A DNA stretch of 64,000 nucleotides from Corynebacterium alimapuense (GTDB taxonomy: Bacteria > Actinomycetota > Actinomycetes > Mycobacteriales > Mycobacteriaceae), in assembly GCF_003716585.1 (NCBI RefSeq), contig NZ_PTJO01000004.1, positions 62,001-126,000 of the forward strand. The letters are read 5' to 3'. This document shows, piece after piece, positions 46,114 through 51,945 of this stretch (the first letter of the stretch is position 1; every line of letters starts with the position of its first letter). A program made the translations under genes and the position numbers. The notes below the pieces were generated by a model. The model saw nothing but the letters and a program-made list of their open reading frames with translations, did no database searches and was not told the DNA's origin.

Positions 46114-46395
46114 ATGAGAACTTTAGATTTTGACCCTGCTTACGCTTGGACACTCACTGGCGATCTCTACGATGCTGCCGGTCGAATTCCCACCACCCCC
46201 ACCATTGAGGTTGCCCCTTCTCCGACGTTGGAACGATTCACGGCGGCGCTTGCTCGGGCACTGGCGGGCGTCGATAAGCAAACATTTAGCGTCCACGACC
46301 GAGCGCGAGTGCTTGCGGAAGAATCCTCCGCGCATATAGACACCGCTGTGGGGGCCGATCAAGACCTCGGGGCTGCGCTGGGCCGGCTGACATGA
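46114..46395 (+). CDS. Small ESX/WXG100-like protein
   Basis: 93 residues, helical, without signal peptide. The C-terminal half (LERFTAALARALAGVDKQTF...ARVLAEESSAHIDTAVGADQDLGAALGRL) has the helix pattern of ESX-secretion-associated proteins of the EspC/DUF2580 type. Ribosome site AGGG. It overlaps the NlpC/P60 gene by 4 bp (ATGA), so the two are likely made together. Classification is an inference from shape and context. Confidence 0.6.
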   Translation: MRTLDFDPAYAWTLTGDLYDAAGRIPTTPTIEVAPSPTLERFTAALARALAGVDKQTFSVHDRARVLAEESSAHIDTAVGADQDLGAALGRLT

Positions 46396-47273
46396 GAGAG
46401 ATCTTCACCGCGATGAGCACTATCGCGGAGCTGGCACCACCTGGCATTCCCACAATCTCGATGGATCCGTTGCCGGATTTTCACACCGCCGATCCGTTAG
46501 CGACACTACTCACCGGTGATTCCAAGGGAGGCGCCCAGCTGATTGAGGTTGCCACGGCGATCAGCGGTGATAGAGAACAGATCACCCAGTTAGTCGACCA
46601 CGCCAGAGTCCTCATTGAAGCTATCCAGCACGAACTGATCACGTTAGCTAAAGAGCTGCTCCACCAAGCTCTGCCACTGCTCCCGGGAGTCCTCTCGCCA
46701 ATTCCTGGAATGCAGACCTCGACGCTTCTCCAGCTATCGCAGTTGGGAGACTCCCTCCTTCAGGTCGCCGCCAATCGGGTATCCACGCTGGTCTTGGAAC
46801 TCGAGCCAATGGCTGTCCAACTCGACCAGATCGCCGACGCCGATCACGCTGGGCAACTGGGACCTCCAGTCGAGGCTGAGCTTCAACCGGCTGCTTTCTC
46901 CACCACCGAAGAATCACCTGCCTCGGTAGATGGATCAGGCCAGGCTGCGGTCGCTGCGGCGCTGGACCAAGTGGGAACCCCCTACGTATGGGGTGGGACC
47001 TCCACCAGTGGCTTTGATTGCAGTGGGCTGACGCAATGGGCTTGGCGACAAGCTGGAGTGGAACTCCCACGGCTAGCTGAGGATCAAACTGTTGGTCAGC
47101 AAGTTACTGCAGAAGAGCTCATACCTGGCGATCTAGCAGTCTGGGACGGCCATGTGGCGATGTATGCCGGTGATGGGCAGATCGTCGAAGCCGGAGATCC
47201 TGTGCAGACTAATCCGCTGCGCACCACGAACATGGGCATGGCCTTCCAAGGGTTCTGGCGGCCGACAGGATAA
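46392..47273 (+). CDS. NlpC/P60 peptidoglycan hydrolase without signal peptide
   Basis: 293 residues. N-terminal 150 residues are helical (LIEAIQHELITLAKELL; QLGDSLLQVAANRV), then a short linker and an NlpC/P60 domain at about 185-293. Catalytic residues: C210 in SGFDCSGLTQW, H254 in DGHVAMYAGDG, E266 in IVEAGDP, a C-H-E set as in mycobacterial RipA. It should cleave stem peptides in the wall, yet there is no Sec/Tat signal. Coupling to an ESX-like gene suggests another export route. Confidence 0.8.
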   Translation: MREIFTAMSTIAELAPPGIPTISMDPLPDFHTADPLATLLTGDSKGGAQLIEVATAISGDREQITQLVDHARVLIEAIQHELITLAKELLHQALPLLPGVLSPIPGMQTSTLLQLSQLGDSLLQVAANRVSTLVLELEPMAVQLDQIADADHAGQLGPPVEAELQPAAFSTTEESPASVDGSGQAAVAAALDQVGTPYVWGGTSTSGFDCSGLTQWAWRQAGVELPRLAEDQTVGQQVTAEELIPGDLAVWDGHVAMYAGDGQIVEAGDPVQTNPLRTTNMGMAFQGFWRPTG

Positions 47274-47304: not shown

Positions 47305-48534
47305 ATGAGCAACCGTGCGATCATTCCTGTAAAACTGTCTCTGACCAAGGGAGATTTCTACACCCTCTGGGCTCCGACGTGGAAGGAGCACGGCGAAGAA
47401 TGGCAGGCTTTCCTCGGCGATGACGATCACGTCTTAGTGTTTTCCTCCTCGGCGGATCTGCTGACCTACTTAGAGTCCGCTAAACCCCACGACCTTTCCT
47501 CGCATCCGAAATGGAAGGCCTTCGAAGCAGGATCGGCCGACCGCGTAGTGCCAGGCAGCAAGGATGAGTACGACATCATCGGCGCCCCTGCGCTATTGGC
47601 TGGCCGTGCTTCCTACGAAAGCGTCGATGCCCTAGCCCGGATCTTTGCCATCACCCGCAGCCTGGCAGAGGTCACCACTGCCAAAGATGCAGTGCTATTT
47701 TTCGCTTCCCACTCCGTGCTCAGCAACGTCGCGCGTGGCTATGAGCACTACGCCGGCGAACACGGACCTGGTGAATGGTCAGCAGTAGGCCGCACCGTAT
47801 TGAGCAACTGGGCAAAGGTCGTTTCAGCTCTGGATGAACAAGTTCGAGTCGTCGAGGTTGATTCCGAACTATCAGCAGATGCTCAAACGCGTATCGACGA
47901 AGCCGCGACGGCTGCTGCGGCAGCCAAAGAGCAGGCCGAAAAAGCTGCGCAGAAGGCAGCCGAACAAGCAGACCCTTATGACTCCACCGACTGGGCCTCC
48001 GCAGGAATCGACCCGGTAAAAATCACCATCCAGGGCAAATCTGTTTACACGTTGCGAACCTACGTCGACGGTGCCCCGCAGTTCCTGGGCCGTTTCGGAG
48101 AAATGTTCACCTTCCCCACGCCTAAGCAGCTGGTGCGGTGGATAGTAGAAAATGACGAGCACGACCTTGCTCGCACTGCCACGTGGGAGGAGCTCATGAT
48201 CGCGGCGAACGCCGGCGAACTAGAGATCCAAGTCCATCCGGTCAACTCTTATTCTTACTCAGGGCTAGTAGCTGATATCTCGAAGGGCCCGGAGGCCGTA
48301 GACACTGAGCAGATGTCCCGTGGCTATGAACTGTTCGCCGATGCTGCCGACTGGGCCAGTGATGATTCCTTGAACTCATTCTTCTTGGCTCACCCGCGCA
48401 TGCAGGACTACATTTCCTACATGCTCGGTTCTACGGGTTCCTCCGGGTATGTGCCTTCTAAGCCCTACACTGACCATGCCGAGGGCTGGAAGCAGCTCGA
48501 AGAAATCCTGATCAAGCGCTTCTCTAAGTTCTAG
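47305..48534 (+). CDS. Conserved corynebacterial hypothetical protein
   Basis: 409 residues from ATG 47305. Soluble and acidic. Two similar halves: each contains a 'WxxF...HVLVFSS(S)ADLLTYL' or 'FLGRFGEMFTFPTPKQLVRWI' block followed by a helical part, separated by an Ala/Gln-rich coiled coil (DEAATAAAAAKEQAEKAAQKAAEQAD, quoted in part AAAAAKEQAEKAAQKAAEQA). This suggests internal duplication. No family recognised and no function proposed. It is convergent with the ADA-like gene. Confidence 0.75.
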   Translation: MSNRAIIPVKLSLTKGDFYTLWAPTWKEHGEEWQAFLGDDDHVLVFSSSADLLTYLESAKPHDLSSHPKWKAFEAGSADRVVPGSKDEYDIIGAPALLAGRASYESVDALARIFAITRSLAEVTTAKDAVLFFASHSVLSNVARGYEHYAGEHGPGEWSAVGRTVLSNWAKVVSALDEQVRVVEVDSELSADAQTRIDEAATAAAAAKEQAEKAAQKAAEQADPYDSTDWASAGIDPVKITIQGKSVYTLRTYVDGAPQFLGRFGEMFTFPTPKQLVRWIVENDEHDLARTATWEELMIAANAGELEIQVHPVNSYSYSGLVADISKGPEAVDTEQMSRGYELFADAADWASDDSLNSFFLAHPRMQDYISYMLGSTGSSGYVPSKPYTDHAEGWKQLEEILIKRFSKF

Positions 48535-48574: not shown

Positions 48575-49597
48575 CTATTCCTCGACTGGGTCAGCGAGTT
48601 CTTCATAGGCCGGAAGGATAACCGTCTCCAAGAGATGCTGTCGTTGTTCTTGGTTAAGAAATGCCGCTTCAACCGCGTTAACCGTGAGATCGAAGAACTC
48701 CTCCGGGCCATAACCAAAGGTCTCAGTTAACGCCAAGAACTGCTCGGTCAACGACGTCACCGAACGGTCGCCAGTATTAACGGTGCAGGTAAATCCCAGC
48801 TGTTGCAGCAGCGGAAGCGGGTGGTCCCCCAGCTGCTCAGCTGCTCCACGCTGGGCTTCCACGCTCGGCGCCGTTTCAACCGTGAGATGGCGATCTCGCA
48901 CCCACGCCGAGATCTTGCCTGGGACGATCCCTTCCATATCTACCCCGAAGTCATCGACCAACCGAGGCGCGTTTCCCAGCCTGGTAGCACCCAATTGGAT
49001 GGCTTCTCCCACGGACTCGATGCCTGCGTCCAATCCAGATTGAATGCTGAAGGCAACGTAGTTTTCCCGCAACGCACGGAAGGCTTCTGCATGAGGTGCC
49101 AATGAATGCCTCTCTTGATCGCCGGAGACACTGAAACCGACGATGATCGGGCCAGACATCGACACGGCTAGGGCCGCGACGTCGTCAAGCACTCCCCCAG
49201 CACGGCTGGCATTGAGAATAAGGCGAGTATCGACGTTGGGGTGTGCCCTATGGGCGGCCTCGACTCCAGTAATGGCGCAATCTACGGCTTCTTGGAGAGT
49301 CAGACCCCCATCAGTGTGGAGCTCAGGGGAAAAGCGCAGCTCCGCATAAACGACATTATCGGCGGCAAGATCTGCCACACTCTGGGCGATTCCTGCGGCT
49401 ATGGCATCTGGGGTGTTCAACTCAGAGAGATTAGCCCCGAGTTCTCCGGTCAAGCTTGCTTCAAGATCATCGAGAATCAGGACTTTGGGCAGCTGTTTGA
49501 GCAGGTCGTGGGTGAGAGCTTTATGCTCCGGGCTGATGGCTGGAGTGTCATGCATGCCAGCCATATTAACCGGGAGTCCAAACTTGTCGTTTGTCAT
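48575..49597 (-). CDS. Adenosine deaminase-like protein lacking catalytic residues
   Basis: 340 residues from ATG 49597 (AAGG upstream; the frame is open to 49651). The whole barrel aligns by eye with mycobacterial Add, for example VVYAELRFSPELH and TFGYGPEEFFDLTVNA. But all metal and catalytic positions are changed: HxH is LILDD, the HAGE segment is QSGL, GHG is GNA and the NTDxP region is NTGD. It cannot be a normal zinc deaminase. The locus near upp matches that of add in mycobacteria. Possible non-catalytic or new activity. Confidence 0.8.
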   Translation of the reverse strand: MTNDKFGLPVNMAGMHDTPAISPEHKALTHDLLKQLPKVLILDDLEASLTGELGANLSELNTPDAIAAGIAQSVADLAADNVVYAELRFSPELHTDGGLTLQEAVDCAITGVEAAHRAHPNVDTRLILNASRAGGVLDDVAALAVSMSGPIIVGFSVSGDQERHSLAPHAEAFRALRENYVAFSIQSGLDAGIESVGEAIQLGATRLGNAPRLVDDFGVDMEGIVPGKISAWVRDRHLTVETAPSVEAQRGAAEQLGDHPLPLLQQLGFTCTVNTGDRSVTSLTEQFLALTETFGYGPEEFFDLTVNAVEAAFLNQEQRQHLLETVILPAYEELADPVEE

Positions 49598-49683
49598 GAA
49601 TACCTTGCTGTTATCTGTTGGCTCGGCGACGTTGCTACTAGCCGCCATCACCCCAGTATCCGCAGCCTTCGGAAGATCGGTTC

Positions 49684-49877: not shown

Positions 49878-50756
49878 CTATTTTGTGCGCTTGCGCGTTA
49901 CCTCGACGCCTGCCCATCGATCATGGGAACCAATGTTTCCAGTTTCCGGCTTGATGGAGCTACCGATGGCAATCATGCCCACGAATGCGATGAGCCAACC
50001 GATTCCTGGGACTAATCCAGCGATCCGCCACCAATAGCGTTTGGCCGATTGTTCAAGCGAAGGCTTGGCTCCGGTTTTCACGTCTCGGACCTCATAACCG
50101 AACAAATGTTTCACAGGGGTGGCACCAGTGTAGGACTCAAAACCAATGAAATACGCAATGCCGACAAGCGAAAGCAGCAAACCTGATAAGGCATCATTGG
50201 AGGATAAAACCACCCCCGCAATCGAGCCCAGCGCGGTCGCTGCCATGGAGTCCAACACCATCATTCCTAAACGCAGTTTCGCATCGGGGCGATCTTGGGT
50301 GGGCACCGAGGGCGAAGAGTAGGGCTGGCTCACGGGCAGCCCCGCGGTGGGCCCAGTGGGCTGGGAGAAGGAGATTCCGGAAACCCCAGGGGAAAACCCA
50401 GTTGGCGTCTGTGGCAGTGCTGGCTTCGGCGGCTCAGGCTGTGGTATCGGCTGCTGCGTCGGCTGTTGACCTAGTAGTTGGGCATCAGGAAAAGATCCAA
50501 AGTTGGCCAAATGCTCTAGCTCTTGCCAAGAGACTGCTCTACCGGTAGCCAGTGCAGCATCATAGCCATTGCGTCTGCCTTCATCGGAGAGAACGGCATA
50601 GGAAATCTGCAGATTACGACGTTGAGAGTCGGATACCGGAACTCCGTTGTTCTCTAATCTCGCATCGCGGCCCAAGATAAGTAGCCCGAGTTCAGCACAA
50701 GATAAATCTCGGTCGAGCCCTAGGGATTGGTAGAGGCTGAAATTCGGGGTGGTCAT
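49878..50756 (-). CDS. RDD-family membrane protein with J-like N-terminus
   Basis: 292 residues. Residues 1-75 look like a degenerate J domain (SLYQSLGLDRDLSCAELGLLILGRDARLE...ISYAVLSDEGRRNGYDAALATG; no HPD). A Pro/Gln-rich linker follows (about 95-155), then an RDD domain with three or four membrane helices (RLGMMVLDSMAATALG; GATPVKHLFGYEVRD; WWRIAGLVPGIGWLIAFVG). RDD proteins are of mixed and mostly unknown function; some are ion exchangers. Confidence 0.8.
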   Translation of the reverse strand: MTTPNFSLYQSLGLDRDLSCAELGLLILGRDARLENNGVPVSDSQRRNLQISYAVLSDEGRRNGYDAALATGRAVSWQELEHLANFGSFPDAQLLGQQPTQQPIPQPEPPKPALPQTPTGFSPGVSGISFSQPTGPTAGLPVSQPYSSPSVPTQDRPDAKLRLGMMVLDSMAATALGSIAGVVLSSNDALSGLLLSLVGIAYFIGFESYTGATPVKHLFGYEVRDVKTGAKPSLEQSAKRYWWRIAGLVPGIGWLIAFVGMIAIGSSIKPETGNIGSHDRWAGVEVTRKRTK

Positions 50757-50859: not shown

Positions 50860-51945
50860 CTATTTTCTCCGAATAAGGGCAATCAATCCAGCCCCCAAGG
50901 CGCCAAGTGCCGCACCAATCCCGAGTGCCGCACTATTTCCGACAATGGGAGCCGGCGTGAGTTCCTGACGAACCCGGATAATCGCAGGATCAGGTATCGG
51001 CGCTTCCATCAGCTCCATAGATGCACTATCAGTGGCTGCCCACGCGGAAGCGTACATCAGGATTCGCCACGTGAAATAGAGGACAACCATTAAGCCAATA
51101 ATCGGGCCAAAGGTAGCGCCAGCGGGGTTGGAAAGTGCATTGGAGAAAAAGACCGAACCGAGCTGTTTAACAGCTTCAAAACCGACTGCGCCCAAGAACG
51201 CCGCTTGCAGACCCGGCTTCCGGGGGACCTTCGTGCGAGGCAAATAAAACACCATCCAGGCCATCACGAGAAAATTAGCCAAGATGCCAACCACCAGAAC
51301 GACTATGAAAGTAATCCAGGAGATACCCGGGATATCTCCCAGCCCGATGAGATTGAGTAGTTTTCCAGCCAAGTCTGCGTTACCCACTGCGGTAACAGCA
51401 AAAGCGATGCCCAGTGCCATAAGCAGACCGAATAGTCCCAGCAAGTCACTGGTTTTATTCCGAAGAAAGCTCCCGACGGCGGTCGGGTCTACCTTCCATA
51501 TTTTGGATACTCCGTAGCGCAGGTTATGCATCCACCCCAGACCAGACCACAAGGTGACCACTAGGCCGACGCCTGCGACGGCACCACGCTGTTCAATGGC
51601 GGTATCGAGGATATCGTTGACGAGGTTTCCCATTTCGCCTTCGACTGTGCTCGCGATTTGTTCTTGTAGTTCAGTTAAAAGTTCCGGACTGCGGGCCAAA
51701 AAGGTAGCGATGGCGGCAACCACCAGCATGAGAATCGGGAAGATGGATAGCACCGAAAAATAGGTGATTCCCGCAGAGTATTGATTTCCGCCCATGCTGG
51801 AATAGCGTTCGTGCATCCGCATCACATGATCAATGGTCTCCGAGCGCTCGCGGAGTTTTCCCACCATTCCAGGCTCGTCCTGGTGAGATCGCTCGATTCC
51901 GTAGTCATCGACGTACCGAGGATCAGATTGGGTACTGGTGGCCAC
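50860..51945 (-). CDS. YihY/BrkB family inner membrane protein
   Basis: 361 residues with about six membrane helices. Family pattern: AAGITYFSVLSIFPILMLVVA-like GITYFSVLSIFPILMLVVA, LWSGLGWMHNLRYGVSKIW, and FGPIIGLMVVLYFTWRILMYASAW. Once called ribonuclease BN, now regarded as membrane proteins of unknown role. Acidic N-terminus and a short glycine/alanine-rich end helix. Upstream of trpS in reverse; spacing 108 bp. Confidence 0.9.
   Translation of the reverse strand: MATSTQSDPRYVDDYGIERSHQDEPGMVGKLRERSETIDHVMRMHERYSSMGGNQYSAGITYFSVLSIFPILMLVVAAIATFLARSPELLTELQEQIASTVEGEMGNLVNDILDTAIEQRGAVAGVGLVVTLWSGLGWMHNLRYGVSKIWKVDPTAVGSFLRNKTSDLLGLFGLLMALGIAFAVTAVGNADLAGKLLNLIGLGDIPGISWITFIVVLVVGILANFLVMAWMVFYLPRTKVPRKPGLQAAFLGAVGFEAVKQLGSVFFSNALSNPAGATFGPIIGLMVVLYFTWRILMYASAWAATDSASMELMEAPIPDPAIIRVRQELTPAPIVGNSAALGIGAALGALGAGLIALIRRK

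Follow-up and report, generated by a model that had tools for sequence, protein, structure and literature searches.

Gene, locus and fold

The DNA analysed, referred to here as the window, is a stretch of 64,000 nucleotides from Corynebacterium alimapuense. On its reverse strand, at 48575..49597, lies a gene for a relative of adenosine deaminase (ADA, encoded by add), which we term the pseudo-adenosine deaminase gene. Translation from the ATG at 49597 gives a protein of 340 residues, and an alternative GTG start at 49651 gives one of 358. The reading frame is open from end to end from this first GTG (48575..49651, reverse strand), and the ATG, which is preceded by AAGG, is the better-placed start. 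Directly upstream on the same strand is a gene assigned by Pfam to the RDD family of membrane proteins (49878..50756), and beyond it lies a gene of the BrkB family (50860..51945, reverse strand). On the other side a convergent SatS-like gene is found (47305..48534, forward strand), for which 240 of 242 genomes of the genus give a match.

The gene order upp - nlpC - satS - [ADA] - (RDD) - brkB - trpS is common to intact copies and to those that have lost catalytic residues (dead copies, defined below). Within 4 kb flanks of 100 loci from the genus, brkB was present in 99, satS in 95 and upp in 72, and in 94 satS directly adjoined the ADA gene. The initial annotation had placed the gene at the usual add locus near upp, and this is what was found; given the shared order, this is add inherited by vertical descent and not a gained paralogue.

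The annotation had also described an adenosine deaminase relative free of frameshifts, with which the open frame, the profile match and the structural model all agree. Pfam A_deaminase (PF00962) matches the protein with 130.9 bits (E 7e-38, cut-off 27), in an alignment which begins only at profile position 64. Seven NCBIfam adenosine deaminase models also match, and all of them score under their cut-offs; the best, NF006847, gave 243 bits against an equivalog cut-off of 412, and TIGR01430 gave 114.1 against 216.55. The AlphaFold model (pLDDT 90.3, pTM 0.88) is a complete ADA-type (beta/alpha)8 barrel which superimposes on mouse ADA with a Z score of 38.3 and an rmsd of 1.8 over 290 residues. 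Confidence is low for residues 1-19, in the region of the N-terminal arm. The alignment behind the model consists mostly of intact enzymes, so that the model speaks for compatibility with the fold and not for the fine geometry of the pocket.

The closest relatives of the window copy are L112-L114, with up to 61% identity, and no relative above 63% identity was found among 242 Corynebacterium genomes. A check for another add gene in the same genome (2.29 Mb, 99.9% complete) gave no second A_deaminase match.

Loss of the zinc and catalytic residues and of the lid

We take the zinc ligands to be the two histidines of strand 1, the histidine of HAGE and the first aspartate of NTD, and the catalytic residues to be the glutamate of HAGE and the histidine of GHG. 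In an alignment of 180 rows the window protein keeps none of these six; H, H, H, E, H and D of the intact enzyme are L, D, Q, L, N and G. This confirms the earlier statement that every catalytic and zinc residue is replaced, with the motifs as first written. The remnants could all be located in the alignment on the reverse strand. The strand-1 zinc motif HDHLDG has become LDDLEA (residues 42-47, 49457..49474), HAGE has become QSGL (residues 186-189, 49031..49042), LGHG has become LGNA (GNA for GHG being residues 208-210, 48968..48976), and NTDN has become NTGD (residues 274-277, 48767..48778), with glycine in place of the catalytic aspartate.

In the window protein 40 residues separate strands 1 and 2, compared to 80-89 in all 29 intact relatives; the helical lid that covers the active site is therefore missing. 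The loss lies at approximately residues 48-61 (49415..49456, reverse strand) and shortens the spacing of the two strands by about 40 residues relative to intact Add. The earlier description of the barrel as intact thus holds for the barrel itself, which is complete in the model, and fails for the molecule, which is not. In the main set of 66 dead copies the spacing is 20-43 without exception, ie the lid is gone throughout. The degenerate copy L211, outside that set, has a spacing of 75.

Zinc ligands supplied by other residues had been named beforehand as a finding that would speak against a pseudoenzyme. No conserved set of His, Asp, Glu or Cys residues in the place of the ligands was found at the mouth of the barrel in the dead set, and a substitute zinc site is rejected on that ground.

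Distribution of the dead copies

The window protein matches 161 of the 242 Corynebacterium genomes, leaving 81 with no match. Residues were read in 146 of the 161 (sets of 100, 40 and 6 genomes, the other 15 being left out), and in 83 of these the copy keeps four or fewer of the six residues; such copies are called dead here. The set of 100, most of them read with their flanks, was collected in order of similarity to the window protein, from the best match down. It contains 19 copies with all six residues, four with five, and 77 with four or fewer (17 with none, 29 with one, 12 with two, five with three and 14 with four). Among the 40 further genomes, picked as likely intact, 35 have all four motifs and none has four or fewer residues. 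Six very diverged copies, found by profile, keep none of the six. Outside these sets, 79 of 80 named relative loci (L032-L111, mostly Mycobacterium) keep all six residues, the exception being L032, from a Corynebacterium metagenome genome; ten of the 80 were included in the tree and in the 29-row intact set used for comparison. Excluded were L209, a second region of one genome, and L001-L031, which are places fetched again later. The 66-row set used for conservation leaves out L251, L264-L268 and, from the tree, the 11 dead copies that diverge most; all of these are treated apart.

In an A_deaminase search of the genus each genome with a dead copy gave a single match, fragments of a single gene, or nothing above threshold, and those listed therefore have no second, intact add. 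One matching open reading frame was present in each of the 66 loci of the main set and in 210 of 212 loci overall, the exceptions being L209 and L210, both outside the 66. The first, at a contig end in genome G221, is a partial dead-type match with a frame of 73 residues and 68% identity to the window protein; the main copy of that genome lies elsewhere, and the genome has four SatS matches. The second (G162) is an add gene of intact type that runs over two frames, which may reflect a frameshifted pseudogene or an error of assembly. The dead copy of G215 has a TAG within its match.

Course of the loss

A quick tree placed the main dead set beside the intact copy L128, with a support of 96 for the set and 93 for the set with L128. 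A second dead set of 11 long-branched copies has an unsure position, long branches meeting where it joins, and L128 falls between the two sets. In a more careful tree of 51 rows the deep forks had support below 80 and were drawn open, and two changes of state were needed; an AU test did not reject a single clade of dead copies (p 0.25). The dead form may thus have arisen once, or possibly twice.

The catalytic residues were lost stepwise along the tree, and copies with six, five, four, three, two, one and none of them exist. The least altered dead copies (L113, L114, L116, L125 and L127) have lost the glutamate of HAGE and the aspartate of NTD and retain the four histidines. Two of them, L113 and L114, belong with L112 to the nearest kin of the window copy, all three keeping four residues, whereas in the window copy none of the six remains. 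In a small clade apart from these (L147, L153 and L160) only the aspartate is gone, with NTDN changed to NTGS and HDH, HAGE and GHG kept, and one or two motifs are missing in each of L308, L309 and L311. The site was therefore damaged more than once. The NTGS motif is also seen in L304 and L305.

Selection on the dead copies

Rates were estimated by YN00, with NG86 as fallback, for pairs aligned over 200 residues or more at 68% identity or higher, with dS of 0.05-2. The pairs were made disjoint by greedy choice and are not phylogenetically independent. For 25 disjoint pairs of dead copies the median dN/dS was 0.126 and the highest 0.389; for nine disjoint pairs of intact enzymes the values were 0.144 and 0.251. 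The highest value in all 151 dead pairs within the dS range was 0.451. At the same dead loci (13 to 24 pairs for each gene) dN/dS was 0.066 for satS, 0.033 for upp, 0.051 for brkB, 0.032 for trpS, 0.161 for the RDD gene and 0.133 for nlpC. The dead gene consequently evolves faster than the first four and at a rate like that of the intact deaminase, RDD and nlpC.

Relaxed selection in relatives had been named in advance as evidence against a retained gene, and in the relatives that could be paired it was not seen. The claim that the gene is kept is accordingly upheld by the family median and by the newly conserved positions described below; this is evidence at the level of the family, the window gene having no relative above 63% identity and its own dN/dS lying outside the estimate.

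Shift of constraint within the barrel

The two ends of the barrel have fared differently. The mean conservation of the catalytic mouth, taken as the positions where the barrel strands end C-terminally, falls from 0.91 in the intact enzymes to 0.53 in the dead set, while that of the opposite end is hardly altered (0.76 and 0.73). Three regions, all encoded on the reverse strand, are better conserved in the dead copies. The N-terminal arm (residues 17-35, 49493..49549), with P19, I21, S22, P23 and K26, has a mean conservation of 0.65 in the dead set and 0.41 in the intact, and the C-terminal helices (residues 283-335, 48593..48751) have 0.74 and 0.64. Residues 262-271 (48785..48814) contain QQLGFTC, in which Q265 and Q266 reach 0.97 and G268 reaches 1.00; the commonest residues at these three positions account for only 0.31, 0.38 and 0.59 of the intact enzymes. 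These gains occur in a set which is the more divergent overall, with a mean identity of 0.49 compared to 0.57 for the intact enzymes.

Counting a position as gained when its conservation was at least 0.8 in the dead set and at most 0.6 in the intact one, we found 28 gained positions, among them P19, I21, S22, P23, K26, W232, Q265, Q266, G268, E300, F302, L328 and E332, and 49 positions which had lost conservation. The count is unweighted, and a weighted table gave the same main positions. The mouth holds 21 of the 49 lost positions and one of the 28 gained (Fisher p 0.00016). Close pairs, in which alignment error is small, displayed an inverted pattern of constraint: dead pairs differ at 106 of 921 positions in the mouth and 65 of 1319 in the C-terminal helices, and intact pairs at 7 of 360 and 87 of 477, respectively. 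The strands of the model alone served to define mouth and bottom, whereas the helix region was picked after the gained positions had been seen. Some intact copies already carry the conserved residue at several of the gained positions. The main dead set matches a median of 26 of the 28, the intact L128 matches 17, the other intact copies 2 to 14, and the 17 most divergent dead copies 4 to 19. Taken with the low dN/dS, the 28 newly conserved positions and the inversion in close pairs lead us to reject recent decay.

Neighbouring genes

The RDD gene is present in 57 of the 66 loci of the main dead set and in none of the 19 intact-enzyme loci of the genus. An obligate partnership is rejected, because the gene is missing from one dead branch (L125/L130/L134/L180/L183) and is found in 11 of the 60 loci whose genomes match the ADA weakly or not at all; the association may come from common ancestry. 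Visual inspection suggested a J-domain at the N-terminus of the RDD protein, but Pfam gave none at an E value of 1 or less.

Obligate dependence on SatS was likewise rejected, as its matches, in 240 of 242 genomes, do not depend on the presence of the ADA gene; SatS persists where that gene is absent and therefore does not need it. In PMC6333443, mycobacterial SatS is described as a cytoplasmic chaperone for SecA2-dependent export, and the sapM gene of M. tuberculosis, whose product is a SatS client, lies directly before satS in one operon. In the window a gene with an NlpC/P60 domain (46392-47273, forward strand) holds the place directly before satS, as in 90 of 100 loci of the genus. By analogy with sapM, its product may be a candidate corynebacterial SatS client.

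Genomes without the gene

Sixty loci beside satS were read, 53 from the 81 genomes with no match and seven from genomes with a weak match; brkB was in view in 58. The gene was present in six of the seven, and in the 53 no ADA relative was found beside satS, no profile hit being better than E 2. As genomes of the genus do without it, the gene must be dispensable on evolutionary time scales; it is useful but, with 81 of 242 genomes lacking a match, not essential.

In 19 of the 60 loci the add slot beside satS is occupied by one family of open reading frames of 234-294 amino acids (L213-L219, L221-L224, L234, L235, L249, L252, L255, L259, L270 and L271). The idea that these are ADA shrunken still further was dropped, since none gave an ADA-profile hit at E 10 or less, and the one protein scanned, that of L235, belongs to the VIT1 family of transporters (Pfam E 8e-62).

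The genome of the window encodes one PF02578 protein, of a family which we understand to have reported adenosine deaminase activity, and two nucleoside hydrolase homologues, so that the loss of Add may not have cost the cell its purine salvage. Corynebacterium glutamicum, included as a control, was absent from the control genomes listed with A_deaminase and gave matches in the PF02578 and nucleoside hydrolase searches.

Interpretation

The fold is kept and all six residues are gone. Together with the distribution in the genus, the orthologous position, the low dN/dS of the family and the newly conserved positions, this sustains the initial view of a pseudoenzyme and suggests a dead form of long standing which is common across Corynebacterium and maintained by selection. 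The reading which we prefer, with a probability of roughly 0.55, is that of a lidless pseudo-deaminase, descended vertically from add, which would bind a partner, probably a protein, through the face made by the N-terminal arm and the C-terminal helices, and which would act as a non-catalytic scaffold or regulator. A corynebacterial add gene would have been passed on vertically, and one ancestor, or possibly two, would have lost the catalytic aspartate, the glutamate and the lid, after which the histidines would have eroded at differing rates in different species. Selection would then have retained the compact lidless barrel with its conserved arm and helices. Binding of a partner is proposed because the mouth is eroded, the lid is missing and the arm-and-helix set is newly fixed. 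From sequence and secondary structure the gained arm and helix positions would form one surface, but their conservation could also mean that they stabilise the fold after loss of the lid. By position only, SatS, the RDD protein and BrkB are the first candidates for the partner.

The same observations bear on other explanations. The low dN/dS and the inverted constraint make it unlikely that the gene is decaying, that zinc is bound at a replacement site or that the family shares a nucleoside pocket. ADA barrels are nucleoside pockets by descent, and an open, lidless pocket might bind a nucleoside or another small molecule without turnover, the conserved face being compatible with an output surface that passes on the signal. 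The initial annotation had mentioned nucleoside binding, which finds no backing here: the mouth has lost most of its conservation (0.91 to 0.53) and is the most different region in close dead pairs (106/921), and with the lid gone in all 66 copies one ligand for the whole family is hard to reconcile with the data. We therefore think such a sensor unlikely. Ligands peculiar to single lineages would still be compatible with an eroded mouth, and the regulatory function mentioned in the same place may apply.

A new catalytic activity, built from other residues of the barrel, might be suspected from the conserved polar residues E86, D216, D235, H259 and E300, each present in 66 of 66 dead copies. 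Three of them (E86, D216 and D235) are also present in 29 of 29 intact enzymes and H259 in 28 of 29, and are more likely structural. Barrel enzymes usually keep their active sites at the strand ends, where no conserved cluster of His, Asp, Glu or Cys was seen, and we regard a new activity as improbable. Slow decay, in which the enzyme became unnecessary and the gene persists as a long-lived relic, is about equally improbable. It would fit the gradual disappearance of the catalytic residues along the tree, the lack of a match in 81 genomes and the stop in the G215 copy, but not a median dN/dS near that of intact add, nor a single matching frame in each of the 66 loci; and a relic would lose conservation, not gain it at 28 positions with constraint inverted. 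That the metal site was rebuilt from other residues and the protein is still a deaminase is highly improbable: the acidic D43, D44 and D277 lie near the old site in the window copy, but their positions are not conserved in the dead set, the glutamate of HAGE and the histidine of GHG have become leucine and asparagine, and the lid is missing.

To return to the scaffold or regulator that we favour, the role of its C-terminal face in binding a protein may, more tentatively, have arisen while the enzyme was still active, before lid, zinc and catalysis were shed to leave a pure scaffold at one locus. The intact L128 matches 17 of the 28 later-fixed positions, which fits a second role acquired before catalysis was lost; common ancestry by itself could produce as many matches.

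Relation to known systems and significance

The nearest comparison is with mycobacterial and other actinobacterial Add (NF006847, PF00962), which shares the barrel and the locus by upp and satS (mycobacterial loci L042-L044), the window protein having 35-39% identity to the rows from outside Corynebacterium. The window protein differs in the absence of the lid and of all six zinc and catalytic residues, and in its 243 bits against the cut-off of 412. Eukaryotic ADA1 is an active zinc enzyme. It has the same fold (1w1i, Z 37.7) and, by the title of that entry, its barrel is also a protein ligand, binding CD26/DPP4; the window protein, unlike ADA1, has no zinc residues. ADAT3 is of the cytidine-deaminase fold, unrelated to ADA. 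As the structural subunit of the ADAT2/3 tRNA deaminase (PMC7713142), a member of a deaminase family that serves a structural purpose, it offers a parallel to the role proposed for the window protein, but the genome of the window encodes no active A_deaminase partner. Inactive metallopeptidase homologs (reviewed in PMC11266112) are relatives of zinc enzymes acting by protein-protein contacts; they are from different families, and here the dead form occupies the enzyme's own locus. In PMC11898615 the term adenosine deaminase refers to the tRNA-specific enzyme. In the literature searched, subscription papers and preprints aside, no title or start of an abstract described a dead ADA family in Corynebacterium.

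Pseudoenzymes have mostly been described as additional members of a family in which an active enzyme is also present. The pseudoenzyme as such is a known kind, and what is new is a family of ADA pseudoenzymes which replaces the enzyme at its native locus, with many intermediates. Members of the dead family pass the Pfam adenosine deaminase cut-off, so that they may be annotated as deaminases, placing a step of purine salvage in genomes which do not have it. The existence of intermediates with six to no residues makes it testable whether the new function came before or after catalysis was lost. If the proposed course is true, the path from a bifunctional enzyme to a pure scaffold would be readable across one genus at one fixed locus.
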